Source: Phycisphaerae bacterium
GTDB lineage: Bacteria; Planctomycetota; Phycisphaerae; UBA1845
Reading direction: 5' to 3'
Assembly (NCBI GenBank): GCA_029260075.1
Contig: JAJDDY010000052.1
Coordinates: 1 to 64,000, forward strand
Length of the DNA stretch: 64,000 bases
A program made the position numbers and the translations under genes. Within the stretch, counting starts at the first letter, position 1. Each line of letters opens with the position of its first letter. The notes below the pieces were generated by a model that was given only the letters and a program-made list of their open reading frames with translations, searched no databases and had not been told where the DNA came from. Positions 5,308 to 17,762 of this stretch are shown piece by piece.

Positions 5308-6432
5308 ATGCATCACGAGCTACTCAAGTTACCCGGCGGTCTGAGCATCAAGACGTATGGGTTCATGCTGATGATCGGTTTCGCCAGTGCGACGTGGATG
5401 GCACGGCGTTGCGCGCGGCGCGTCAAGGCTGACCCCGATGTCGTGCTCAACGTGGGTGTGTTAGCCATGCTCTTTGGCATCGCCGGGGCACGCCTGTTCT
5501 ATGTTATTCACTACTGGCGGCGGTTCGCGGACGGGCCGAATCCGCTCGCCGCGATTCTTGATATTCGCAAGGGTGGCTTGGAGTTTCTCGGCGGGTTTAT
5601 CTTTGCGACGATTGCGATCGTCGCGTACTTGATGTTCCCGCGACGCTGCAGCGACGGCATACGGCGGCCGCTGTCGATTCGAATGTACGTGGATATCTTC
5701 GCGCCGAGCGTGGTCTTGGGGTTGGCGTTTACGCGGCTTGGTTGTTTCGGTAACGGTTGTTGTTTCGGTGACGTGTGCGTCAGCGCCGATCGCCAGGAAG
5801 CGGTGTGGCCTTGGGCGGTCGAGTTTCCGTATGGAAGTCCGTCGTTCAACCGGCAGTGGGAAGAACGGGCGATTACCGTGCCGGCTGAACTCATTCGCAC
5901 GTCGAAACGCTATCCGCACCCCAAACTCGTCGACCGCGACGTGCTCATTTCGTCCGATCGGGACCAGTTAGTGCGCGTGACGGTGGCGCGTCAACATTTT
6001 CCCTCGCGGCAGGTTCCGTCTCGACCGACGTCTGCTTCTGAGCTTCGCGCTTTCGCGTCTAATCTACATGCTTTGTACGCGCATCCGACACAAGTCTATT
6101 CGTCGATCAGTTGCGCGCTCCTGACCGGCGTCTTGGCGTGGATGTTCCGTGTGCGCAAACGGCACGGGGTTGTTCTCGCGTACATGCTCGTGTGTTATCC
6201 CATTTCCCGGTTTCTGCTGGAGATGATTCGATCCGACAACCCGCGCGACACGTTCGGGATGACCGCGTCCCAATTCGTCAGCGTGGTGATGTTCTCTTGT
6301 GGTATCGTTCTGTTCATCGTGTTGTACCGATTCCTCCCGCTACGTTCACCCCACGCCGTCGCGTGGGTCGCCAACCCGCCTATGCCCATTCCACAGCAAC
6401 CCCAGCGGAAGCGGAAACGCCGAAAACGCTAG
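5308..6432 (+). CDS. lgt: Prolipoprotein diacylglyceryl transferase
   Basis: Transfers diacylglycerol from phosphatidylglycerol to the lipobox cysteine of prolipoproteins in the inner membrane. The signature is spread over several helices: GGLEFLGGFIF, then FTRLGCFGNGCCFGD with the essential Arg and Asn, HPTQVYSS, and SRFLLEMIRSDNPRDTFG near the end. At 374 aa it is clearly longer than the roughly 290-aa E. coli enzyme. The extra 80 or so residues form a charged, non-membrane insert between CCFGD and HPTQVY (about residues 160-250). The C-terminus is Pro/Arg/Lys-rich. Likely substrates in this window are the lipoproteins encoded at 18162 and 22777. Confidence 0.95.
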   Translation: MHHELLKLPGGLSIKTYGFMLMIGFASATWMARRCARRVKADPDVVLNVGVLAMLFGIAGARLFYVIHYWRRFADGPNPLAAILDIRKGGLEFLGGFIFATIAIVAYLMFPRRCSDGIRRPLSIRMYVDIFAPSVVLGLAFTRLGCFGNGCCFGDVCVSADRQEAVWPWAVEFPYGSPSFNRQWEERAITVPAELIRTSKRYPHPKLVDRDVLISSDRDQLVRVTVARQHFPSRQVPSRPTSASELRAFASNLHALYAHPTQVYSSISCALLTGVLAWMFRVRKRHGVVLAYMLVCYPISRFLLEMIRSDNPRDTFGMTASQFVSVVMFSCGIVLFIVLYRFLPLRSPHAVAWVANPPMPIPQQPQRKRKRRKR

Positions 6433-6689: not shown

Positions 6690-7304
6690 ATGGCCCGGCC
6701 GCTGAAATTCAAACAGGCGATTTATGATTCAGCCACCAAGCTGTTCGGCGAGCACGGTCTTGCTGACACAGGCGTGCGCGAGATCGCCAAGGACGCCGGA
6801 GTAAGCGAAGCCGCACTCTATCGCCATTGGAAGGGTAAGAAGGAACTCGCCCGTGATATTTTCCTGGATGGCATGAGCCAGCTTCAATTGCGGCTTGTTA
6901 CAGAGGTTCCAACCGACGGGCCTGCGTGTCACGCCATTCATGCGGTCGTGAGGATATTTTTCGAAGCCTACGACACCGTTCCCGAGGCGGTTCACTTTCT
7001 CCTGATGAATCAGCACGTCGTGTGGCGAACGATCGACCGCGACATGCCCAACCCGGTCAGCTTCTGGTTCAACTTGCTGCGCGACCGCGCGGCGCAGTTC
7101 GACTTGGTGGACGAATCCGTGGACGACATCATCGGTCCCGTCACGCTTGGGATGATTCTCCGCCCCGGCATCGCCGCGTCATACGGAAGTATTCCTCGAC
7201 CACTTAGTCAACACATCGACAAAGTGAGTTTGGCCATCTGTCGTGTCGTTGGCACCCCATGGTGCATCGGGGCCGATGCGGTTGCAGATTCCACGCCTTC
7301 CTGA
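6690..7304 (+). CDS. TetR/AcrR family transcriptional regulator
   Basis: 204 aa. The N-terminal 50 residues form a clear TetR helix-turn-helix: AIYDSATKLFGEHGLADTGV, then REIAKDAGVSEAALYRHWKGK with the recognition helix. The remaining 150 residues would be the ligand-binding and dimerisation domain and are too variable to suggest a ligand. GAGG lies upstream of the ATG. The gene is followed by a 414-base space with two GTTAACAAA repeats and then the Fe-S reductase operon in the same direction, so control of that operon is possible but not shown. Confidence 0.9.
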   Translation: MARPLKFKQAIYDSATKLFGEHGLADTGVREIAKDAGVSEAALYRHWKGKKELARDIFLDGMSQLQLRLVTEVPTDGPACHAIHAVVRIFFEAYDTVPEAVHFLLMNQHVVWRTIDRDMPNPVSFWFNLLRDRAAQFDLVDESVDDIIGPVTLGMILRPGIAASYGSIPRPLSQHIDKVSLAICRVVGTPWCIGADAVADSTPS

Positions 7305-7718
7305 CGCACTGCCAGTTCATCGCGCGAAGACCGGTTAATAAATTCATTTTTCCCGTTCCCCATATTGCGCAAGGCCGGGCAACCGCCGTGGCGCTTGCCA
7401 GAGAACGTTTCGTAACACTTCCTTTCTAATGCCGTAGCGCTGTCGGACAACATCGCGAAGGTTAATGCTCCCGTGTGTTTGGGCTTTCAGCAGACGCCGT
7501 CAGTGGCGGGCGGTTCACTTCGTATTGCCTCAATGGACTGTTGTTGAAACGTGCGTTAACAAACCGGCGCGATGGATGTGTTAACAAATAAATAGTCCAT
7601 TAGTAAGCGCGTAATGTCGTCGTAGTTCGTAATTGCACCTTGCTCGGTATCAGTTTGCACGCTACCGTTTTCTTGGAACGCACTGACAGGGTCCGACATT
7701 CAAATTGGGAGCATCATC
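7305..7718. other. Intergenic region upstream of the Fe-S reductase operon
   Basis: No gene is visible. The right half is noticeably AT-richer than the neighbouring DNA and should contain the promoter of the operon starting at 7719. Two GTTAACAAA motifs (7555 and 7580) are the only repeated signal. I could not identify a convincing -35/-10 pair. Confidence 0.4.
7541..7588. promoter_or_regulatory. Possible operator: two direct GTTAACAAA repeats
   Basis: GTTAACAAA occurs at 7555-7563 and again at 7580-7588, with start points 25 bases apart. A TTGTT just upstream of the first copy makes a loose inverted repeat with its AACAA. The spot lies between the TetR gene and the operon at 7719. This is a pattern only. 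A TetR dimer site is the simplest guess. Confidence 0.25.
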
Positions 7719-9548
7719 ATGCCCGCGATCGCCGAAGCGAAAACTGCCAGGAACGTGGCACTGCCAACGTACGATGACGAGGTGACGCGATACAAGCAAC
7801 GATTGCTCGAAGAGGCGGGGCTCAACGTCGGTCCGCCGTCGCACTTCAAGCGCTCGCACGAGCGACCGTTCACGCGTAGCGAACGAGACCATGTGACCGT
7901 ACTGTTCGGTGGTTTGACGTTACGGCACGAGCGGATGGTCATGGCCGGACTGCAAGGACTTGGCTACAACGTTGATCTTGTCCGCACGCCGGTGAAGGAT
8001 GATTTTCAAGCGGGTCGCGAATACGGCAACAATGGTCAGTGCAATCCGACCTACTTCACCGTCGGTTCGCTCGTGAACCACCTCAAGCGGCTTCGCGATG
8101 AAGAGGGAATTTCCACCCAGACCATTATTGATGACTACGTGTTCTTCACGGCGGGGGCGTGTGGACCGTGCCGATTTGGCATGTATGAAGCGGAATATCG
8201 ACTGGCCCTGCGCAACAGTGGGTTCGATGGTTTTCGCGTGCTGCTCTTTCAGCAGAGCGGTGGGGTGAATCAGGCGGACATCGAAGCCGGTTTGGAACTC
8301 GACTTGAACTTCTTCCTCACGCTTGTCAATGCTCTTTTCATTGGCGACCTGTTGAACGAAGTGGCCTACCACATCCGCCCCTATGAGATTGACAAAGACA
8401 AGACCAACGACGTGTTCGCCAAGTGTGCGGAGCTTTGTGGGAACAATCTGCGCGAAAAGGATTATGACGCCATGCATGGCGGAACGCTGGCCAAGCTGCT
8501 TGCCGGCGTGGCTCCGGTAAAGGATGCGGACGACGCCGAAAAATTCCTGGACCAAATGCGTGGCACGTACTACGTCGATGCGTTCAAGGAATGTGCAGAG
8601 CTGATCAACGACGAGGTCGAAGTCGACTACACGCGTCCGAAACCCGTCGTGAAAATCACTGGCGAGTTCTGGGCTCAGACCACCGAAGGTGACGGCAACT
8701 TCAACATGTTCAGCTTTCTGGAAGGCGAGGGCGCCGAAGTCCTTGTGGAGCCAATCGCGACGTGGCTTGCCTATATGCTGAATCAGGTTCGTAACGCCCA
8801 GCGGGACCGTCATGAAGCGGGCGTCGGGACGGGCGCAGAAGAAAGCGACAAGGAATCGCGTCCGGGCCGATGGAATCTTCGCGCCCGTTGGAAACAGGAG
8901 GCGGACTATCGCAAGCGCATGCTCACGCTCACGATGGCGGACAAGCTGATCAACCGTGAATACGATCGCCTTCGTAAGGGTCTTGGAGGGACTGCTCACG
9001 AGTTGGTCAATCAGCAGCATCTAGTGCGCCTCGGTCACCCGTTCTACAACTCGCGTAGCGGCGGAGGTGAGGGGCATCTCGAAGTCGCGAAGAACATTTA
9101 CTATGGCAGCAAGAGTCTCGCCCACATGGTGTTGTCGCTGAAACCGTTCGGTTGCATGCCGTCCACTCAGTCCGACGGTGCCCAAACCGCAGTCATCGCC
9201 AAGTATCCCGACATGATCTACTTGCCCGTGGAAACCTCCGGCGAGGGTGACATTAACGCCCACTCGCGCGTTCAGATGGCGCTCGGCGATGCGAAGATCA
9301 AGTGCAAGGAAGAATTCAAAGCGTGCGTGGCGAGGACCGGATACACCATCGATCAGATTCGGGCCTACGTGGCTGACCATCGCGAGCTTCGACGTCCGTT
9401 GCTTTCGATACCGCATGCCGAAGGCGTCGTCGGTCGTGCAGCCAACTTCGTACTCCACGTGGGTTCGCTCATGGCCAGCCAGCAAGAAGCACCGGCTGTC
9501 GAGTGCTCGGCTTCGACAAACGCCACGAACGGGCGGGTCGCTGTATGA
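7719..9548 (+). CDS. 2-hydroxyacyl-CoA dehydratase / double-cubane-type subunit (COG3581-like)
   Basis: 609 aa. It resembles the C-terminal part of the very long CoA-dehydratase-activase proteins of anaerobes, here as a separate gene. Conserved-looking segments are TVLFGGLTLRHERM, NNGQCNPTYFTVGSLVNHL, FFTAGACGPCRFGMYEAEYR, QSGGVNQADIEAG and KPFGCMPSTQSDG. The Cys in these motifs are candidate Fe-S ligands. Family knowledge: such subunits accept very low-potential electrons from an ATP-hydrolysing partner and reduce a difficult substrate. The substrate here cannot be read from the sequence. The ATG has GGGAG upstream. The 3' end overlaps the next gene in an ATGA, which argues for a fixed complex with that product. 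Confidence 0.8.
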   Translation: MPAIAEAKTARNVALPTYDDEVTRYKQRLLEEAGLNVGPPSHFKRSHERPFTRSERDHVTVLFGGLTLRHERMVMAGLQGLGYNVDLVRTPVKDDFQAGREYGNNGQCNPTYFTVGSLVNHLKRLRDEEGISTQTIIDDYVFFTAGACGPCRFGMYEAEYRLALRNSGFDGFRVLLFQQSGGVNQADIEAGLELDLNFFLTLVNALFIGDLLNEVAYHIRPYEIDKDKTNDVFAKCAELCGNNLREKDYDAMHGGTLAKLLAGVAPVKDADDAEKFLDQMRGTYYVDAFKECAELINDEVEVDYTRPKPVVKITGEFWAQTTEGDGNFNMFSFLEGEGAEVLVEPIATWLAYMLNQVRNAQRDRHEAGVGTGAEESDKESRPGRWNLRARWKQEADYRKRMLTLTMADKLINREYDRLRKGLGGTAHELVNQQHLVRLGHPFYNSRSGGGEGHLEVAKNIYYGSKSLAHMVLSLKPFGCMPSTQSDGAQTAVIAKYPDMIYLPVETSGEGDINAHSRVQMALGDAKIKCKEEFKACVARTGYTIDQIRAYVADHRELRRPLLSIPHAEGVVGRAANFVLHVGSLMASQQEAPAVECSASTNATNGRVAV

Positions 9549-12500
9549 GCATGCGCGGTCAATCGAATCCCGCGTCGCCGGGCGACGTGCGCCGTCAGCA
9601 GAAGCACAGCGGCGGATCGACCTCATTGCCCGTAGTCGATGAATCGCCGTCGGGCGGAGGATGCGGCGGCGGCTCTTGCGGGTCAAGTCATTCCGGTCCG
9701 AAAGATCCGACGCCGAAGTTCGTCTCGCTCAACACGGCCACCTTGTCAGCCAATCGCCACAAGCCGTCGATCGAGGCGCTCGCATTTCGCGGGACCGACG
9801 CGTACCCCGACGGGTTGATGATCGGTTTGGACGTGGGCTCGACGACGGTCAAAGCCGTCGTGGTCAATCCCATAACCGACGAAGTGCTTTGGAAGGAATA
9901 CCACCGACACGATACCAAGCAACCGGAAAAGACGCTGGAGATGCTCGCGAGCATCGAAGCGACCCTTTCCGATGTTCCTCGCTCCGCGTACCGCCTGTTC
10001 GTCACAGGTTCCGGCGGGGGGGCTTTGCTTCCTCATCTGGGCGGCAAGTTCGTTCAAGAGGTTAGTGCCGTGTCCCTGGCAGTTGAAAAACTCTACCCCG
10101 AAGTCAACAGTGTGGTGGAGTTGGGCGGTCAAGACGCCAAGATCATTGTCTTCAAAACCGACGAAGTGAGCGGGCGGAAAAAGAAAATCCCGTCGATGAA
10201 CGACAAGTGCGCCGGCGGGACCGGTGCGGTGATTGACAAAATCAACGCCAAGCTGCGCATTCCGCCGGACGAACTGTGCAACATGGCGTACCACGGCGTC
10301 AAGCTTCATCCCGTGGCCGGTAAGTGTGGCGTGTTCGCCGAGACGGACATCAACGGTCTTCAAAAGCAGGGTGTTCCCGCCGACGAACTGATGGCATCGT
10401 TGTTCGAGTCGATCATTCAACAGAACCTTTCCGTGCTCACCCGAGGGCACACGCTGCGCCCCACAGTCCTGCTCCTCGGCGGTCCGAACTGCTACATCAA
10501 GGGCATGCGCGAGTGCTGGCAGCACAACATTCCCATCACCTGGAAGGAGCGGGGCGTTGATCTTCCCGATTCCGGTCGATCGCCCGAGTCCTACGTCATC
10601 ACACCGGACAACGCCCAATACTTCGCGGCGCTCGGAGCCATCGAGTTTGGGAAGATTGAGGTTCTCGACGAGCCCAACATCGGTGCCTACTTGGGTCGCG
10701 GGTTGCTCGAGTGGTTCGTCGAGCATGGCCGCGCCGCGGAAAACCAATCGCGCGGTAAGCGGGGACTGGCGAAAGACGCCGACGATCTTGAGCGGTTTCA
10801 GAGACAGTACAAGAAGAAAATCTGGCGTGCTCCGCCGCAAGCAGCGCGTACGCAAATAGATGCGTTCATCGGGTTGGACGGCGGATCGACGTCGACCAAA
10901 GCCGTGCTGATCGACAGAGATCGAAACCTGATCGCCAAGTCGTATCAGCTTTCGAAGGGCAATCCGATCGAAGACACGATCGACGTGTTGTCAGAGCTTG
11001 AGCAGCACCTGATCGATCAGGGTTGCACGTTGAACGTCCTGGGCGTGGGTACGACCGGCTATGCGAAGGATATTCTCAAGGACGTGCTTCGTGCTGATGT
11101 GGCGCTCGTCGAGACCGTCGCGCACACGCAGAGCGGTCTACACTTCTATCCCGGCACCGATGTGATCGTCGACGTGGGCGGGCAGGACATCAAGCTGATC
11201 GTCCTCAAAGAAGGGCGTGTCAAAGACTTCAAACTCAACACCCAGTGCAGCGCCGGAAACGGCTACTTCCTCCAATCGACCGCAGCCGGTTTCGGGTACG
11301 ACGTGCGCGAATACGCCGACATCGCTTTTTCCGCTGAGTCCATGCCCGAGTTTGGCTACGGCTGCGCCGTCTTCATGCAATCGGACATTGTAGATTTCCA
11401 GCGTCAAGGTTGGCAGCCCAACGAAATCATGGCCGGTCTGGCGGCGGTGTTGCCCAAGAATATATGGCTATACGTGTCGCAGATTCCCAACATCGCCAAG
11501 CTCGGTACGAAGTTCGTGCTGCAAGGTGGCACGCAACACAACCTCGCCGCCGTCAAGTCGCAAGTCGATTTCATCGTGTCGCGTTTTGTGGGCACGGGTT
11601 TGACGCCGGACGTCGTGGTCCACGAGCACTGCGGAGAAAGCGGTGCGATTGGGTGCGCGTTGGAAGCCCATCGTTTGTGGTCTGACCGTGTAGCGCCCAC
11701 CGAGTTCATCGGCATGGAAGCCGTGCGGCGCATCGAATACAAGACCACGCGCGAGGAGAACACGCGGTGCTATTTCTGCAAGAACAAGTGCCTGCGCACG
11801 TTCATTGACGTCAAGACCGCACCGTCCGCAGAGGCGACGCCGGACTCTCTGGTTGACCTGTCGAGTCGCGTGCTTACCGCCACTACGTCGAAAGCGAAGC
11901 CCGAACACGTCGCAAACGAGGTCGCGATTGGAAGTAACGGAACCGCGAAATCGAACACGAAGCCCAAGCCGAAATTCGTCTCGAAGATCCCGATCGAAGA
12001 GGGTTCGCAGCGTTTGATTATCGCCACGTGCGAGAAGGGCACGGTCGAAGACGTCAACGACATGCGTGGTATCAAACAGGGGCTCGACGCGATCAAGAAG
12101 CTCAATCCCAATCTGGTCGAGCTGTCGGCGCGTGAAATCTTCAAAGATCCCGAAGTCGACGTCGTGGCTGATGCGCCGCCGAGCGTGTCCCGATGGCGGG
12201 TAGGCAGTCGCAAAGCAAGCGAGCTTCGGCGCGAGCAGATGAATCGCCGGACGGAGGTGCGGATCGGCATACCGCGCGTGTTGAACATCTACTCCCTGGC
12301 CCCGTTCTTCACGGGGTACTTCAAGAGCTTGGGCGTGCCCTTCAAGAACATTGTGTGGAGTGGCTATACGACGGAACAGCTCTACAAGTCTGGAGCGAAA
12401 CGCGGGGCGATCGATCCGTGTTTCCCGAGCAAGTTGGGCATTCCACACGTTCACGACCTGTTGCATCGTGTGCATTCAGCCAAGCCGCTCACGCACATCT

Positions 12501-13489
12501 TCTTCCCGATGGTCGATACGTTCCCGACGTTCCTGTATGGCGTACAGGACAGCCGCGCTTGTCCGACCGTGGTGGGGACCGCCGAGGCTACACACGCTGC
12601 TTTCATCAAAGAAGGGGACATGTTCGCCGGCAAGAATATCGTGTTCAAGAAAACGTTTATGAACCTCGACGAGCCGCAGCTTTGTGCCCGGCAGATGTTC
12701 GACGATTGGGTCGACGAACTAGGGATTTCAGAGGAGGAGTCACGGCGGGCTGTGGATGAAGGGCTTAGAGCACTTCGCGACTACGACGATCGCATGCGCA
12801 GGAAAGCGCGTGCCGTCATCGACCAGCTCGAAGCCGAAGAGCGGATCGGTGTCGTACTCTTGGCACGACCATACCACAACGACCCCGGCGTTAATCACGA
12901 GATCACCGAAGAGCTCCAGAAACTAGGCTATCCGGTGCTCACGCAAGATTCGTTACCCACCGATCCCGACTTGCTCGAACGGTTGTTCGGTGCAGAGGTC
13001 GCTGACGGCAGTCTGGCGTCACCGTTGTCAATTGAAGATGTCTGGAAGAACAGCTATTCGGAAAACACGTCGCGCAAGGTGTGGGCTGCCAAGTTCACGG
13101 CACGCCACCCCAACCTGGTCGCTCTGGAAATGTCAAGCTTCAAGTGCGGTCACGACGCCCCTATTTATTCGGTGGTCGAAGAGATCATCGAGAAATCTTC
13201 CACGCCGTACTTCAGTTTCAAGGACGTTGACGAAAACAAACCGACCGGGTCGATCAAGATACGCATCGAAACGATCGCCTATTTCCTGAAACGATACCGA
13301 GAAGACATGATGGCCAAGCGCAAAGCCCGCGACGAGATCGATCGCAAGGTGGCTGACTACGCCAAGCGAAGACCGGTCCACGCCATACCTGTACACGCGG
13401 CTGAGCTGTCCAAGTCTTCGTATGGCCATGCTCCAGACTACGTGACGCCGGCGTTGCGCGCCGAGATCATCGAGGCCGCCACGCGGTGA
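9545..13489 (+). CDS. Large activase: two tandem BadF/BadG-type ATPase domains plus a COG3580/DUF2229-like domain
   Basis: 1314 aa from the ATGA-coupled start; a longer reading begins at 9503. A Gly/Ser/Cys-rich leader is followed by ATPase domain 1 with GLDVGSTTVKAVVV, ELGGQDAKIIVF, KCAGGTGAVIDKI and GKCGVFAETDING. ATPase domain 2 has GLDGGSTSTKAVLID, DVGGQDIKLIVL, TQCSAGNGYFLQS and GYGCAVFMQSDIVDF. Each domain keeps the two Cys that in HgdC-type activators hold half of a bridging [4Fe-4S] cluster. A linker with CYFCKNKC leads to a C-terminal domain with GIPRVLNIYSLAPFF, GAIDPCFPSKLGIPHV, DSRACPTVVG and SFKCGHDAP. It should hydrolyse ATP to push electrons into the partner encoded upstream. 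The stop overlaps the next start (GTGA). Confidence 0.85.
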   Translation: MSMRGQSNPASPGDVRRQQKHSGGSTSLPVVDESPSGGGCGGGSCGSSHSGPKDPTPKFVSLNTATLSANRHKPSIEALAFRGTDAYPDGLMIGLDVGSTTVKAVVVNPITDEVLWKEYHRHDTKQPEKTLEMLASIEATLSDVPRSAYRLFVTGSGGGALLPHLGGKFVQEVSAVSLAVEKLYPEVNSVVELGGQDAKIIVFKTDEVSGRKKKIPSMNDKCAGGTGAVIDKINAKLRIPPDELCNMAYHGVKLHPVAGKCGVFAETDINGLQKQGVPADELMASLFESIIQQNLSVLTRGHTLRPTVLLLGGPNCYIKGMRECWQHNIPITWKERGVDLPDSGRSPESYVITPDNAQYFAALGAIEFGKIEVLDEPNIGAYLGRGLLEWFVEHGRAAENQSRGKRGLAKDADDLERFQRQYKKKIWRAPPQAARTQIDAFIGLDGGSTSTKAVLIDRDRNLIAKSYQLSKGNPIEDTIDVLSELEQHLIDQGCTLNVLGVGTTGYAKDILKDVLRADVALVETVAHTQSGLHFYPGTDVIVDVGGQDIKLIVLKEGRVKDFKLNTQCSAGNGYFLQSTAAGFGYDVREYADIAFSAESMPEFGYGCAVFMQSDIVDFQRQGWQPNEIMAGLAAVLPKNIWLYVSQIPNIAKLGTKFVLQGGTQHNLAAVKSQVDFIVSRFVGTGLTPDVVVHEHCGESGAIGCALEAHRLWSDRVAPTEFIGMEAVRRIEYKTTREENTRCYFCKNKCLRTFIDVKTAPSAEATPDSLVDLSSRVLTATTSKAKPEHVANEVAIGSNGTAKSNTKPKPKFVSKIPIEEGSQRLIIATCEKGTVEDVNDMRGIKQGLDAIKKLNPNLVELSAREIFKDPEVDVVADAPPSVSRWRVGSRKASELRREQMNRRTEVRIGIPRVLNIYSLAPFFTGYFKSLGVPFKNIVWSGYTTEQLYKSGAKRGAIDPCFPSKLGIPHVHDLLHRVHSAKPLTHIFFPMVDTFPTFLYGVQDSRACPTVVGTAEATHAAFIKEGDMFAGKNIVFKKTFMNLDEPQLCARQMFDDWVDELGISEEESRRAVDEGLRALRDYDDRMRRKARAVIDQLEAEERIGVVLLARPYHNDPGVNHEITEELQKLGYPVLTQDSLPTDPDLLERLFGAEVADGSLASPLSIEDVWKNSYSENTSRKVWAAKFTARHPNLVALEMSSFKCGHDAPIYSVVEEIIEKSSTPYFSFKDVDENKPTGSIKIRIETIAYFLKRYREDMMAKRKARDEIDRKVADYAKRRPVHAIPVHAAELSKSSYGHAPDYVTPALRAEIIEAATR

Positions 13490-13773
13490 ACGATGACCGA
13501 GCGGGCAAGATTATGTTCGAGATTTTCCGCGACGTACGCGGGGCGCCCGTTTATGGCGTTGTCTACTACACCGAACTCGAAGAGGACGATCGCGACGTGG
13601 TCATCGAACGAGTCATGGCCTGCGAGCACGTGCTCGGCGGATTTGTCGCCGACGGCGATGCATCGGCACAGGCCAAGGACGCCATCGCCGCCATCTTGGA
13701 CCGTCTCAACGACGGGGAATCCCTAGAGACCGACGCCGTACGCGACTTGTTGGCGTCTCACCTCGTGCCCTAA
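13486..13773 (+). CDS. Small protein coupled to the activase, unknown function
   Basis: 95 aa, acidic, no membrane segment and no Cys pair. I do not recognise a family. The GTG start overlaps the TGA of the activase in GTGA, so it is probably translated by the same ribosomes. The middle contains FEIFRDVRGAPVYGVVYYTE and then a helical, Asp/Glu/Ala-rich half ending in RDLLASHLVP. An ATG-started frame at 13493 covers the same DNA in another register, but its Arg/Ser/Thr-rich product looks like a shadow. Context suggests an accessory or regulatory partner of the ATPase-reductase pair. Confidence 0.65.
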   Translation: MNDDRAGKIMFEIFRDVRGAPVYGVVYYTELEEDDRDVVIERVMACEHVLGGFVADGDASAQAKDAIAAILDRLNDGESLETDAVRDLLASHLVP

Positions 13774-14341
13774 CTAGCGCGTGGTGCCGCCCGCATACCA
13801 GCTCACTTCACAGCGAAAATAGACAGCATACTTTCCAGTGCCTTGTCACACATCGTATGGCGGGTTTACCGAGCCGCGACCGTAAGGAAGCGGACGTATG
13901 AAAACCGGTCGCGACACCCTAACAACGCTCCCGCACGGTCGCGGCTCGGATCGGACCAACGTGTCACTGAAGTCGTGAAAAAACCCCGATGTCTTGTCAG
14001 CGTCGCTTTGGTGGGTGCCGTAGGCCTGGATGGCCCATCTCTTCAGACGTGTGGGATTCGAATCCAGCGTCGATTCGTGTCCGCCACGGCTAAGGGTATG
14101 GGCAACCCAACTCGTCGTTCGACCGCAGACAAGCGACTAGACGATGGACACCGTGCGGTCGCGCCTTGGTACCCTCAACGTCATGTTCGTATGTCACGGC
14201 GACATGGGCACGAAATCGTAGCCGTTCCTGCTCATGTCGTCCGATGCTAGAATGAATTGCAGCCAAGACGCGACTTGGCTATCGTGATTAGCGATGGTCC
14301 AGTGATCGCGACGACCGCGGAAGCCCTGGCGAACCGCCGTT
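13774..14341. other. Intergenic region with a full family I repeat
   Basis: It holds one complete family I element (about 13845-13985) and no credible gene. The right part, roughly 13990-14341, must contain the promoter of the ECF sigma factor, but I cannot point to it. Confidence 0.45.
13845..13985. repeat. Dispersed palindromic repeat, family I (GAGCCGCGACCGTAAGG), copy 1
   Basis: About 140 bases. The outer left end GTCACACATCG and the outer right end near GTCGTGAAA are roughly inverted. Inside, CCGAGCCGCGACCGTAAGG is mirrored by CACGGTCGCGGCTCGG. The copy at 46754-46894 aligns over the whole length, including the flanks (CACACATCG...CGGGTTTA), so the element is longer than the inner palindrome. 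Confidence 0.75.
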
Positions 14342-14926
14342 ATGTCGTCGATGGATGTTCGTGTGTTGGCGGAGGGCTTTCCCGGCTTGGATAGTGAATG
14401 CGTGAACAAGCGAAACCTCATCGAACGCTGCCGCCTCGGTGAGCGAGAAGCCCAGCGAGAGCTGTATGAACAGACGTCCGGTCGCATCTTTCGCCTCCTC
14501 CTGCGCATGACGGGCAATCCCGAAGACGCCTCCGACCTGACGCAGAATACTTATGTCAAAGGGCTACAACGGCTTGATCAGTTCGACGGTCGTTCGGCCA
14601 TCGCGTCGTGGTTCTACCGCATCGCCATAAACGAGGCGCTGCAGTTTCGTCGCCAGTCGGGCACCGGAAGATTGAAACTTCAGGAACTCGCCCCCACTCG
14701 ACCGAGTCAAGCACACCCCCCCGCAACCGACGTTCGCTTGGATATCGAGGAGGCGTTGGTGGGACTCTCGCCGGACGATCGAGCGTTGCTCTTACTGCGA
14801 TATCAAGAGGGGCTCGATTATCGCGGAATCGCCGAGGTTCTGGAGTGCGCCGAGGGAACCGTCGCGTCTCGTCTGAACCGTGCCCGCGAGCGACTTCGGG
14901 GGATTCTGCAGGAAAGCTACGGATAA
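14342..14926 (+). CDS. ECF-type RNA polymerase sigma factor
   Basis: 194 aa. Region 2 is recognisable in FRLLLRMTGNPEDASDLTQN and the following LDQFDGRSAIASWFYRIAIN. Region 4 has LVGLSPDDRALLLLRYQEG and the helix-turn-helix DYRGIAEVLECAEGTVASRL. Region 3 is absent, as in ECF factors. The first ATG has no clear ribosome binding site. An in-frame GTG at 14402 would give a more typical N-terminus, so the first 20 residues are uncertain. No anti-sigma factor gene follows; the next gene is on the other strand. Its target genes cannot be read from the sequence. Confidence 0.9.
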   Translation: MSSMDVRVLAEGFPGLDSECVNKRNLIERCRLGEREAQRELYEQTSGRIFRLLLRMTGNPEDASDLTQNTYVKGLQRLDQFDGRSAIASWFYRIAINEALQFRRQSGTGRLKLQELAPTRPSQAHPPATDVRLDIEEALVGLSPDDRALLLLRYQEGLDYRGIAEVLECAEGTVASRLNRARERLRGILQESYG

Positions 14927-14999
14927 TCGAAGCAACGATCTACCCCCATGCATCCGCACATCGCTCGCACGAGGCGGCGGGCTGCTCGCGGATAATATG

Positions 15000-17762
15000 C
15001 TACGGTACGACGAGTTCCAGGTTGTGCGATCTTGGGCCGTCGTTCACTTCGCGGAGCATGAGACGGACCGTTCGGCCGATAAGCGACGCCCCGTTGGGGA
15101 ACCGATACCGGACGGTCTGGCTGTCACCAGGAAGCAGACCGGACATGGGTCGGTATTGTCTCTGTTGACCAGGTACGACCGCCGCACCCCGAAAACTGAG
15201 CACGTTCTTGGTATGGTTGGTGACGACGTGGTGGAGAACGAGATCAGAGCGTTCCACAACGGCCGTACCCCAGACCGCGACGTCCGTCAATTCAAGGCTC
15301 ACTTCGAGCGGTACTTCGAGGTAGTACGGCGGGCTCTCTAGCGAAATTTGCGCCACAATGGATTTTGTGCCGGCCGGTTCGTTATGGGGGTAGCGGATCT
15401 CCAGCGGTAGGTGGCTGATTCGTCGCGCTTGCGCGGAGAAGCTTCGATGTCGCCGTGATAGGGCCCATGTGCTCGGCGCCAAGAGGCTCAGTTCGCCATT
15501 TATGGAGTGGTCACCGTGATAGGCGATTTCGATTGCGTGCGAGACGATTTCGCTTCCGGTGTCGACGCGTCGCGGTGTCAGCGTCATGGCGGTTCGAAAA
15601 TCGATGAGCCATCGATCCACCCCGCTAACGAAGACGGGCGTGTTGGTTACACGGACGACCTGTCGCCCGTGTTCATCGCGTCCCAGTGGTGTGGTGTTTC
15701 CCCAAAGGTCGACCTGGCGGCGGGCCTGGCCCAGTTGGATGGCGTATTGCTTCCCGCTTGGCGGCGCGTATCGATCCCAGATGACAAGTGTGGTGTTCGT
15801 GTCGTCGCTAAAGGCGAGGCAAACAACACCTTCGCCGAGCGCGACGCGCGGTCCGGGCCTGAGGTTGCCCAGTGAGCTCGCGATCGTTCGCATGGCGATG
15901 AAGTCTTCAGTCGGTTCGGCTGTTCGGCCGAACACGCCATCGCGCACCCGCCAGGTCTGTGGTGCGAATACTGTGTCGGCGCCGCCGTGGCGAGCAAGCA
16001 CCATGCGCTGCGTCCAGTCGGCCAGACGCGGCAGGCGACGATATCGATCTTCAGGCGCCGGCTCGATGTAGACCGAGACCCTCACGTATCCATCGCTCTT
16101 GGCCTGTTTGATGAGCGTGGCGAACGAATCCGGATCAATCTCGCGTCCCATCGTCAGGACAAGATGATCGACAGACGGTTTGCCGGCGTTGTCATTACTT
16201 GCCGCGCGAACGGGTACAGCAAGTCGCGGTATGGTGATGAACGCACGCATCGCCTGTCCGAGTTGGGCGATGGCCTTGTCCAGCTCGACAGGGTCAGCCA
16301 CAGGCGGCGCCGCGTCGGGACCGATTTGCCACCAGCGAAACGCCGTGGCGTGCGGGGCGACGACAGATGCGAGGTGTTCGTTCCAGGCGTTGGGATTGCC
16401 GGCAAGTAGATCGATCAAAGGTCGCACGTAGGCGCCGCTTCCCCGAACGATGCCGCCCGGCGGTCCAACGAACACCGCTGATAAATCGAATCCACGTTTG
16501 ACCAGCTCCTGCAACATGCGATCCGTCGAGCGACGCTGTTGGATTGTCGGCGGCGCGTCAGGTAATCCGGTCCAGACCGGGAGCTTGACGGATCCCACCG
16601 CTTGCGCATCAAGAAGTGCCAACTCGGTGTCAGTATCCGTTCGAGCGCGAGGATCGATCACCACGCCGAACGATCGCCCAAGTGAACCGCTGGCGTTGTC
16701 GATGTCCTCTACTTTGGCGAAAGTGAGCGTGCGCGTGACCAGCAGTGTCTTGCCGGCATAGACGTCCAGACGGGCGTGGTAGATTCCCGGACCCAAGTGG
16801 GCAAGCGACACCGAGGGCGGATCGGCGGACCCGTTGGGCGTGGTCATGACGGAGTGACGTTCCACCATCACGCCATCCGCAGCCATGATCGACAGTGTAC
16901 CGGTCGGGGCCGGTCGTTCGTTGGCCGCCAGACTGATTCGAAGCATTGGCTCATCGTTTGGCGTGATGACATTTCCCTCGACGCCTGTGCTCAACTGAGC
17001 ACGGGGTAGGGCGAATACGGTGATGTCATCAAACCAAGCCCCGGCGAATAGATCTCGGTGTGCGATTTGTCGACGATGCGGCGGGGCGTCGTTCCACGTT
17101 GCCCCCTGAACAACCCACGCGGTCAATCCAATGGACGCGGCTTCGTCCGGCGCCGCTGCCAAGTGAAGCTCGATGCGTTGCCACTCGTCCGACGCATTTT
17201 CTCCTCCGATATAGCGCGAGCGCACAAGAGACCCGTCAATGGGTAGGCCGAGACGATCCACGAAGTGAGCGCTCAGGCAGGCGCGGGCGTACCGAAGGCG
17301 ATCCGGTCGAATGTAGGCTTGAATGCGGTAGTCGGTGCTCGCATTGACCGGAGTGTTCGGACCGGAGTAGCGATAGGCCACATTGCGTCCTTCGCATTGA
17401 AGATGAAACGAAGGGGCTCCGGGTCGACCAATGGCGTCATCGAATTTTCCTGTGGCGTAGTGAGGGAAGCCGTCGAGGACCAACGGCTCCCAGTATCTTG
17501 GTACGTCCTCAAGGTTGCCGTCGTCGCGCTCTGCGAAGTCGAAACGATGCACGATCCGGTTCGAGGATTCGGCAGCGTCTTCGTCGCTTTGGGCACGCGC
17601 GTCGGGTTCAAGCGAGATCAGCGGCTGAACTGCTAGTACGCTCAGCCCAACGACGGCTACAAGCCGCAACCGCGACGCGCTGTGGCGCGATTGCCGAGGA
17701 GCGCGCACTTCGCCGAAGCCGGCACGCGATTGGGGGAGCCCGGATTTTGGCGCGACGGTCAT
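15000..17762 (-). CDS. Large exported protein of unknown function
   Basis: 920 aa from the ATG at 17762; a TTG at 17816 would add 18 residues. A basic stretch and then LRLVAVVGLSVLAVQPLISL around residues 32-52 form a signal peptide or anchor. The next 200 residues contain many aromatic residues and a WFDDITVFALP motif, resembling a beta-sandwich carbohydrate-binding module. The middle (about 350-600) could be a TIM-barrel, glycosidase-like domain, with WWQIGPD and VRVSVYIEPAPEDRY, but I see no certain catalytic pair. The C-terminal 250 residues look like beta-sandwich domains. It converges with the ECF gene. I would call it a cell-surface or periplasmic protein and leave the activity open. 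Confidence 0.75.
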   Translation of the reverse strand: MTVAPKSGLPQSRAGFGEVRAPRQSRHSASRLRLVAVVGLSVLAVQPLISLEPDARAQSDEDAAESSNRIVHRFDFAERDDGNLEDVPRYWEPLVLDGFPHYATGKFDDAIGRPGAPSFHLQCEGRNVAYRYSGPNTPVNASTDYRIQAYIRPDRLRYARACLSAHFVDRLGLPIDGSLVRSRYIGGENASDEWQRIELHLAAAPDEAASIGLTAWVVQGATWNDAPPHRRQIAHRDLFAGAWFDDITVFALPRAQLSTGVEGNVITPNDEPMLRISLAANERPAPTGTLSIMAADGVMVERHSVMTTPNGSADPPSVSLAHLGPGIYHARLDVYAGKTLLVTRTLTFAKVEDIDNASGSLGRSFGVVIDPRARTDTDTELALLDAQAVGSVKLPVWTGLPDAPPTIQQRRSTDRMLQELVKRGFDLSAVFVGPPGGIVRGSGAYVRPLIDLLAGNPNAWNEHLASVVAPHATAFRWWQIGPDAAPPVADPVELDKAIAQLGQAMRAFITIPRLAVPVRAASNDNAGKPSVDHLVLTMGREIDPDSFATLIKQAKSDGYVRVSVYIEPAPEDRYRRLPRLADWTQRMVLARHGGADTVFAPQTWRVRDGVFGRTAEPTEDFIAMRTIASSLGNLRPGPRVALGEGVVCLAFSDDTNTTLVIWDRYAPPSGKQYAIQLGQARRQVDLWGNTTPLGRDEHGRQVVRVTNTPVFVSGVDRWLIDFRTAMTLTPRRVDTGSEIVSHAIEIAYHGDHSINGELSLLAPSTWALSRRHRSFSAQARRISHLPLEIRYPHNEPAGTKSIVAQISLESPPYYLEVPLEVSLELTDVAVWGTAVVERSDLVLHHVVTNHTKNVLSFRGAAVVPGQQRQYRPMSGLLPGDSQTVRYRFPNGASLIGRTVRLMLREVNDGPRSHNLELVVP

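Follow-up and report, generated by a model that had tools for sequence, protein, structure and literature searches.

A predicted ATP-driven radical reductase operon of a Phycisphaerae bacterium represents a deep, separate lineage of the PlsA-PlsR/Ger superfamily

A three-gene operon in the genome of a Phycisphaerae bacterium, lying within the 64,000-nucleotide stretch of DNA analyzed here (referred to as the window), is predicted from its domain architecture and conserved cysteines to encode an ATP-driven radical reductase of the BCR/HAD type, belonging to the PlsA-PlsR/Ger superfamily as a deep and separate lineage. We refer to the lineage of the window as T1 and to its sister lineage as T2. 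On balance, we favor the view that the T1+T2 enzymes reduce membrane-lipid esters to (vinyl) ethers, with the substrate being assigned by analogy. A preliminary description of the operon had proposed a low-potential, ATP-driven Fe-S reductase, which the family architecture supports, but it named the wrong nearest relative and did not recognize the plasmalogen synthase/glycerol ester reductase architecture.

Results

The three open reading frames (Table 1) are joined by 4-base overlaps, ATGA and then GTGA, exactly as first described for positions 7719-13773. The ATG at 9545 gives a second gene product of 1314 aa, and an alternative GTG at 9503 would give one of 1328 aa. The first two genes are present in 15 of the 60 genomes searched, including the organism's own, the other copies being 52-73% identical and from relatives in the same order; since orthologues are kept at this level, the frames are real genes rather than chance open frames. 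Orthologues of the 95-aa protein also occur in same-order relatives. The 4-base coupling is particular to the organism's own genome, orthologous gene pairs being separated by about 30 bp to 2.4 kb. A DUF2229 protein was found only once in the organism's own genome.

Table 1. Features of the operon and its surroundings (window coordinates, except for the last row)
Feature	Position	Strand	Basis and remarks
lgt-like gene, predicted prolipoprotein diacylglyceryl transferase; neighbor of operon	5308..6432	+	Pfam LGT PF01790, E=1.3e-48
TetR-family regulator gene	6690..7304	+	Pfam TetR_N, E=5.5e-16
GTTAACAAA, two identical copies whose starts lie 25 bp apart	7555..7588	+	In 414-bp gap between TetR gene and operon
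Red2, 609 aa, second reductase subunit, PlsR-like	7719..9548	+	Homology to C-terminal part of fused PlsA-type proteins; cysteine columns; model
Act1-Act2-Red1, 1314 aa, double activase and first reductase domain, PlsA-like	9545..13489	+	2x PF01869 and PF09989
Act1 domain, about residues 91-380	9815..10684	+	PF01869; putative cluster ligands C222, C261
Act2 domain, residues 442-708	10868..11668	+	PF01869, best stretch; putative cluster ligands C568, C607
Linker with C742, C745, C749, C829	11768..12031	+	Cysteines invariant in all four groups compared
Red1 domain, DUF2229 residues 906-1137 and third ligand C1201	12260..13147	+	Putative ligands C959, C1006, C1201
P0003, 95-aa protein, GTG start, probable third component of T1 system	13486..13773	+	Co-occurrence with T1
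lgt directly upstream of T2 operon in Sulfurovum contigs	L083 7062-7847, L084 2418-3377, L095 7195-7986		

Pfam analysis of the 1314-aa protein reveals BcrAD_BadFG (PF01869) in two stretches, followed by DUF2229 (PF09989, E=3.5e-46), i.e. the two activase domains and the DUF2229 domain that together in one chain mark the PlsA-PlsR/Ger superfamily. The protein had been described as a large activase; its two BcrAD_BadFG domains bear this out, but it also carries a DUF2229 reductase domain, Red1, with three cysteines of its own, and is thus activase and reductase in one. Because Red1 sits in this chain and Red2 is the 609-aa protein, the catalytic pair is split across the first two genes. The four-cysteine linker between Act2 and Red1 may form an additional metal or Fe-S site. 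A PlsA-type protein from Listeria is homologous to the 1314-aa protein over its full length, with 31% identity. Among 14 control genomes, DUF2229 matches were confined to Thermotoga maritima, Lactococcus lactis, Thermus and Deinobacterium; Ger has been verified in T. maritima (PMC11150832) and PlsA in L. cremoris (PMC12838417).

The 609-aa Red2 has no Pfam and no NCBIfam match, and a PDB sequence search with its profile found nothing. However, tblastn shows its homology to the C-terminal portion of fused proteins of 1400-1600 aa from Listeria, Haliovirga and Collinsella, and its profile scores about 75-127 bits against fused or PlsR-like proteins. The operon was correctly seen as split and reversed with respect to the form in anaerobes, in which a fused chain of about 1400-1500 aa runs Act-Act-Red1-Red2. 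The best PDB matches (Foldseek) of an AlphaFold2 model of Red2 (pLDDT 81.5) were BzdNO and DCCP, and a model of Red1-Red2 from the naturally fused SAR202 relative L068 (pLDDT 81.5) matched DCCP, BzdNO and HadBC; BzdNO, DCCP, HadBC and MbdON are the dominant family among the best PDB matches of both models, at Foldseek E-values >0.001, so that these matches count as support for the fold only.

Across the window, sister, PlsA and Ger-like lineages, C222, C261, C568, C607, C742/C745/C749/C829 and C959/C1006/C1201 of Act-Act-Red1 are invariant. In Red2, C108, C151 and C479, the putative [4Fe-4S] ligands, are conserved in 100% of the sequences of the same four groups, in accord with a homologous Red2/PlsR part, whereas C148, which forms a CxxC motif with C151, is present in 100% of the window lineage and 93% of the sister lineage, compared with 13% and 0% of the remaining two. 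In BzdNO, three cysteines (Cys95/128/380) hold the [4Fe-4S]-OH2 site of BzdO, and six (Cys36/73/100/263/293/327) hold the double cubane of BzdN (PMC11971306). To judge from their cysteines, the reductase halves of the operon, with three ligands each, would fit a BzdO-type [4Fe-4S] site and not a six-cysteine double cubane.

This difference bears on the original proposal that the operon encodes a DCCP-like reductase acting on a small molecule, i.e. a double-cubane [8Fe-9S] protein with an ATP-driven activator. DCCP with DCCP-R shares its fold family and an ATP-driven activator with the operon, and the best fold matches include 6eno, 7yyl and 7yzm. By contrast, the six cysteines needed for a double cubane (cf. 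BzdN, PMC11971306) face three in Red1 and three plus one lineage-specific cysteine in Red2, and the separate single activator of DCCP (243 aa, beside a DCCP of 419-422, i.e. about 420, aa) faces a double activase fused to DUF2229 in a 1314-aa chain; nor was the HGD-D Pfam domain found in the first two proteins at E<=0.1. We rejected the proposal on the cysteine count and architecture, and consider it very improbable.

The three-cysteine [4Fe-4S] pattern of BzdO (PMC11971306), together with membership of the same superfamily, might instead suggest a 2-hydroxyacyl-CoA dehydratase or a class I benzoyl-CoA reductase of a CoA-thioester pathway. The fold, the three-cysteine [4Fe-4S] sites and the activase family are indeed shared with HadBC/HgdAB, BzdNO, Bcr and Mbd, but in the operon the activases are duplicated and fused to Red1. 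The BCR equivalog models match the activase part only, and score far below their cut-offs (116.8 versus 578, 85.9 versus 380 and 74.3 versus 313); the 609-aa subunit, as noted, matches no family model, and genes of CoA pathways do not recur next to orthologues. Both enzyme types were rejected on family models and gene context, and a CoA-thioester substrate appears most unlikely; the preliminary description had likewise leaned away from a hydroxyacyl-CoA dehydratase, with which the lack of an HGD-D match agrees.

Trees of Act-Act-Red1 (IQ-TREE, LG+C20, quick search, SH-aLRT support), built without the verified enzymes of C. perfringens, E. faecalis, T. maritima and D. alkenivorans, and for which the program warned of long branches meeting, contain three lineages. 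T3 (branch support 99) comprises the Listeria PlsA and other proteins mostly from anaerobes. Clade B comprises Ger-like proteins of the window's phylum, either fused or split in the PlsA-PlsR order, and includes a fused 1431-aa protein from a genome (G416) that is probably Ca. Kuenenia. Ca. Kuenenia reportedly carries a modified plsA (PMC8788747), and this homologue is the only Ger-related reference placed in the tree, where it lies outside the window clade. T1 and T2 together form the third clade (support 100), on a separating branch of about 2 substitutions per site, and so apart from the PlsA sensu stricto of T3. Placement in a known substrate-specific clade, named beforehand as evidence that would count against the first interpretation, was not seen; the operon falls in a clade of its own.

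In T1, Red2 precedes Act-Act-Red1. This lineage is present in the window's order and in Bryobacterales (Acidobacteriota), Myxococcota, Ignavibacteria, Krumholzibacteria and SAR202 (Chloroflexota; fused). T2, which shares the Red2 CxxC with T1, mostly has its genes the other way round; its carriers are Bacillus chungangensis, Myxococcota (Enhygromyxa among them), Sulfurovum, Cellvibrionaceae and Rhodospirillales. Two long-branched sequences (L074 and L089) were at first sorted with T2 by identity and lie near the base of T1 in the tree. In the order of one Bryobacterales locus, 98 of 257 genomes have a strong P0002-type match.

The survey also yielded several observations on gene structure and copy number. 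The window's order holds a separate clade B paralogue family (L030-L041), either fused (about 1430 aa) or split as Act-Red1/Red2, and four genomes (G007, G036, G055 and G058) carry both this paralogue and the T1 operon. A SAR202 contig (L068, 5587-10842) encodes a natural T1 fusion, Act-Act-Red1-Red2, of 1751 aa. In G391 and G540 (loci L170 and L171), two genomes from the window's phylum, the T1 Act-Red1 gene is surrounded by very long open frames. A Mediterraneibacter contig (L122) has two convergent PlsA-type genes of different subclades, at 7977-12383 and 13348-17595.

The 95-aa protein has no confident Pfam or NCBIfam match. Profile searches for it covered the set of relatives and a second set of genomes. 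In the relatives it is present in 13 of 16 T1-holding genomes (G026 on the strength of a fragment at the edge of a contig) and absent from 44 of 44 genomes without T1; in the second set it is present in 14 of 19 T1 genomes (Acidobacteriota, Myxococcota, Ignavibacteriota and Chloroflexota), in none of the 11 genomes classed as T2-type or intermediate, and in none of 19 Bryobacterales without the operon. A twentieth genome of this last group (G077), with both the 95-aa protein and a strong P0002 match, was left out of the count. Pooled, the figures are 27 of 35 T1 genomes versus 0 of 74 others (Fisher p about 1e-18, shared ancestry uncorrected). The gene is often unlinked to the operon, as in 7 of the 13 positive relatives, so that its co-occurrence with T1 is not a by-product of adjacency; the neighbors of the unlinked copies gave no functional clue. 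On the basis of this distribution the T1 system probably includes the 95-aa protein as a third component.

The preliminary description found no substrate clue nearby, which is not quite right, because an lgt-like gene and a TetR-family regulator gene lie just upstream of the operon, and lgt adjoins the sister system in Sulfurovum. The window's Lgt-like protein is long, at 374 aa, with the 240-position family model spanning residues 5-338, and has an insert in its central part and a basic tail at the C terminus. The TetR gene product is likely a local regulator of the operon, and the GTTAACAAA pair in the intervening gap is a candidate operator; its two copies are the only ones in the 64 kb, where 0.10 would be expected, and two copies were seen in 0 of 100 shuffles. 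A sigma-70 promoter scan and an Rfam search gave nothing for the operon. TetR genes also adjoin the T2 operon in four Myxococcota loci, and a TetR gene lies upstream of pls in E. faecalis (PMC9702350).

Among T1 orthologues in the window's order, the neighborhood survey found nothing conserved beyond the operon itself, neither lgt nor the TetR gene being kept. In Sulfurovum, lgt lies directly upstream of the T2 operon in three contigs, with a 4-base overlap in two and a distance of 141 bp in the third, a lead to a lipoprotein or phosphatidylglycerol connection. In an Ignavibacteria contig (L093, 2913-6049) the squalene synthesis genes hpnC, hpnD and hpnE lie directly upstream of the T1 operon, with about 80 bp between them and it. 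This recurrent lipid gene context was noticed after the fact, and is suggestive rather than proof.

Discussion

The closest functional comparisons for the operon are with PlsA-PlsR and Ger. PlsA has the layout Act1, Act2, Red1, Red2 (PMC12838417), and PlsA-PlsR (C. perfringens Q8XL48/Q8XL47; fused in Enterococcus, Listeria and Lactococcus) has the same two activases, Red1, Red2 and core cysteines as the operon. The C. perfringens system is also split into two genes, and a TetR gene lies upstream in some pls systems (PMC9702350). By contrast with PlsA, the operon lies in a separate clade, with 28-31% identity to the fused reference proteins, has its gene order reversed, includes a 609-aa Red2 with a CxxC motif and a 95-aa third component, and lacks the extra Act2 cysteine (CSAGC) of the PlsA group. 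Verified Ger, which makes alkyl ethers (PMC13274423, PMC11150832, PMC8788747), has two activase domains, and this double activase (BB) architecture of the T. maritima (Tmari_0479) and Desulfatibacillum alkenivorans enzymes (PMC13274423) is shared with the operon. The D. alkenivorans Ger is one 159-kDa chain (PMC11150832), unlike the split operon, and the Ger-like proteins of clade B show domain-by-domain homology to the operon proteins.

The PlsA/Ger architecture, the full-length homology to PlsA, the invariant Fe-S cysteines, the fold matches and the lipid gene context together point to a lipid ester as the probable substrate. The lineage-specific Red2 CxxC, and the fact that lipid genes are not kept as T1 neighbors, argue against this assignment. 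For PlsAR, sequential electron reductions, protonation and dehydration have been proposed (PMC8788747).

By analogy with established knowledge of the BCR/HAD family, the Act1-Act2 pseudo-dimer would accept an electron at its shared [4Fe-4S] cluster, and ATP hydrolysis would drive it at very low potential to the [4Fe-4S] clusters of Red1 and Red2, where the ester carbonyl, most likely that of an acyl ester of a membrane glycerolipid, would be reduced to a ketyl-type radical. Loss of water would then give a vinyl ether, and further reduction an alkyl ether. The 95-aa protein may have an assembly, docking or regulatory role.

The same machinery could, however, serve another substrate, such as the diacylglyceryl moiety of lipoproteins, a different class of lipid or a soluble metabolite. 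The fully supported branch that separates T1+T2 is long enough to make a substrate change conceivable, and the reversed gene order, the extra third component and a Red2 CxxC absent from PlsA-type proteins would suit one, as would the finding that lgt, and not phospholipid genes, is the sole recurrent lipid neighbor. In addition, the carriers include Bacillus chungangensis and Enhygromyxa, which are generally known as aerobes. Against this stand the retention of all cluster ligands and both activase domains as in PlsA, and the neighborhoods examined, in which no alternative substrate pathway recurs. We regard a change of substrate as unlikely, albeit a good deal less so than the DCCP-like and CoA-thioester readings. 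We know of no member of the T1+T2 clade that has been assayed.

If the lipid-ester reading is correct, T1+T2 may constitute a third kind of bacterial reductase that turns lipid esters into ethers, at work in facultative or even aerobic bacteria and, in T1, aided by a small dedicated partner protein; we advance this broader proposal only tentatively.

Where branched tetraethers serve as climate proxies, the underlying question is which bacteria form ether lipids, and by means of which enzyme. Screens in the literature have found Ger/PlsA homologues in Planctomycetota and Acidobacteriota, and state that Ger and PlsA are indistinguishable by sequence alone (PMC11868695, PMC10087280, PMC13274423); PlsAR homologues have been proposed as the ether-forming enzyme of the brGDGT producer Solibacter usitatus (PMC10087280). 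This analysis contributes the sorting of PlsA/Ger homologues into three lineages, with that of the window being separate and widespread, and the identification of a small co-occurring protein as a testable third component. If the proposal of a third reductase type is true, T1+T2 could be an ether-forming enzyme so far missing from the picture in Planctomycetota, Myxococcota and Acidobacteriota, groups without ElbD among them.
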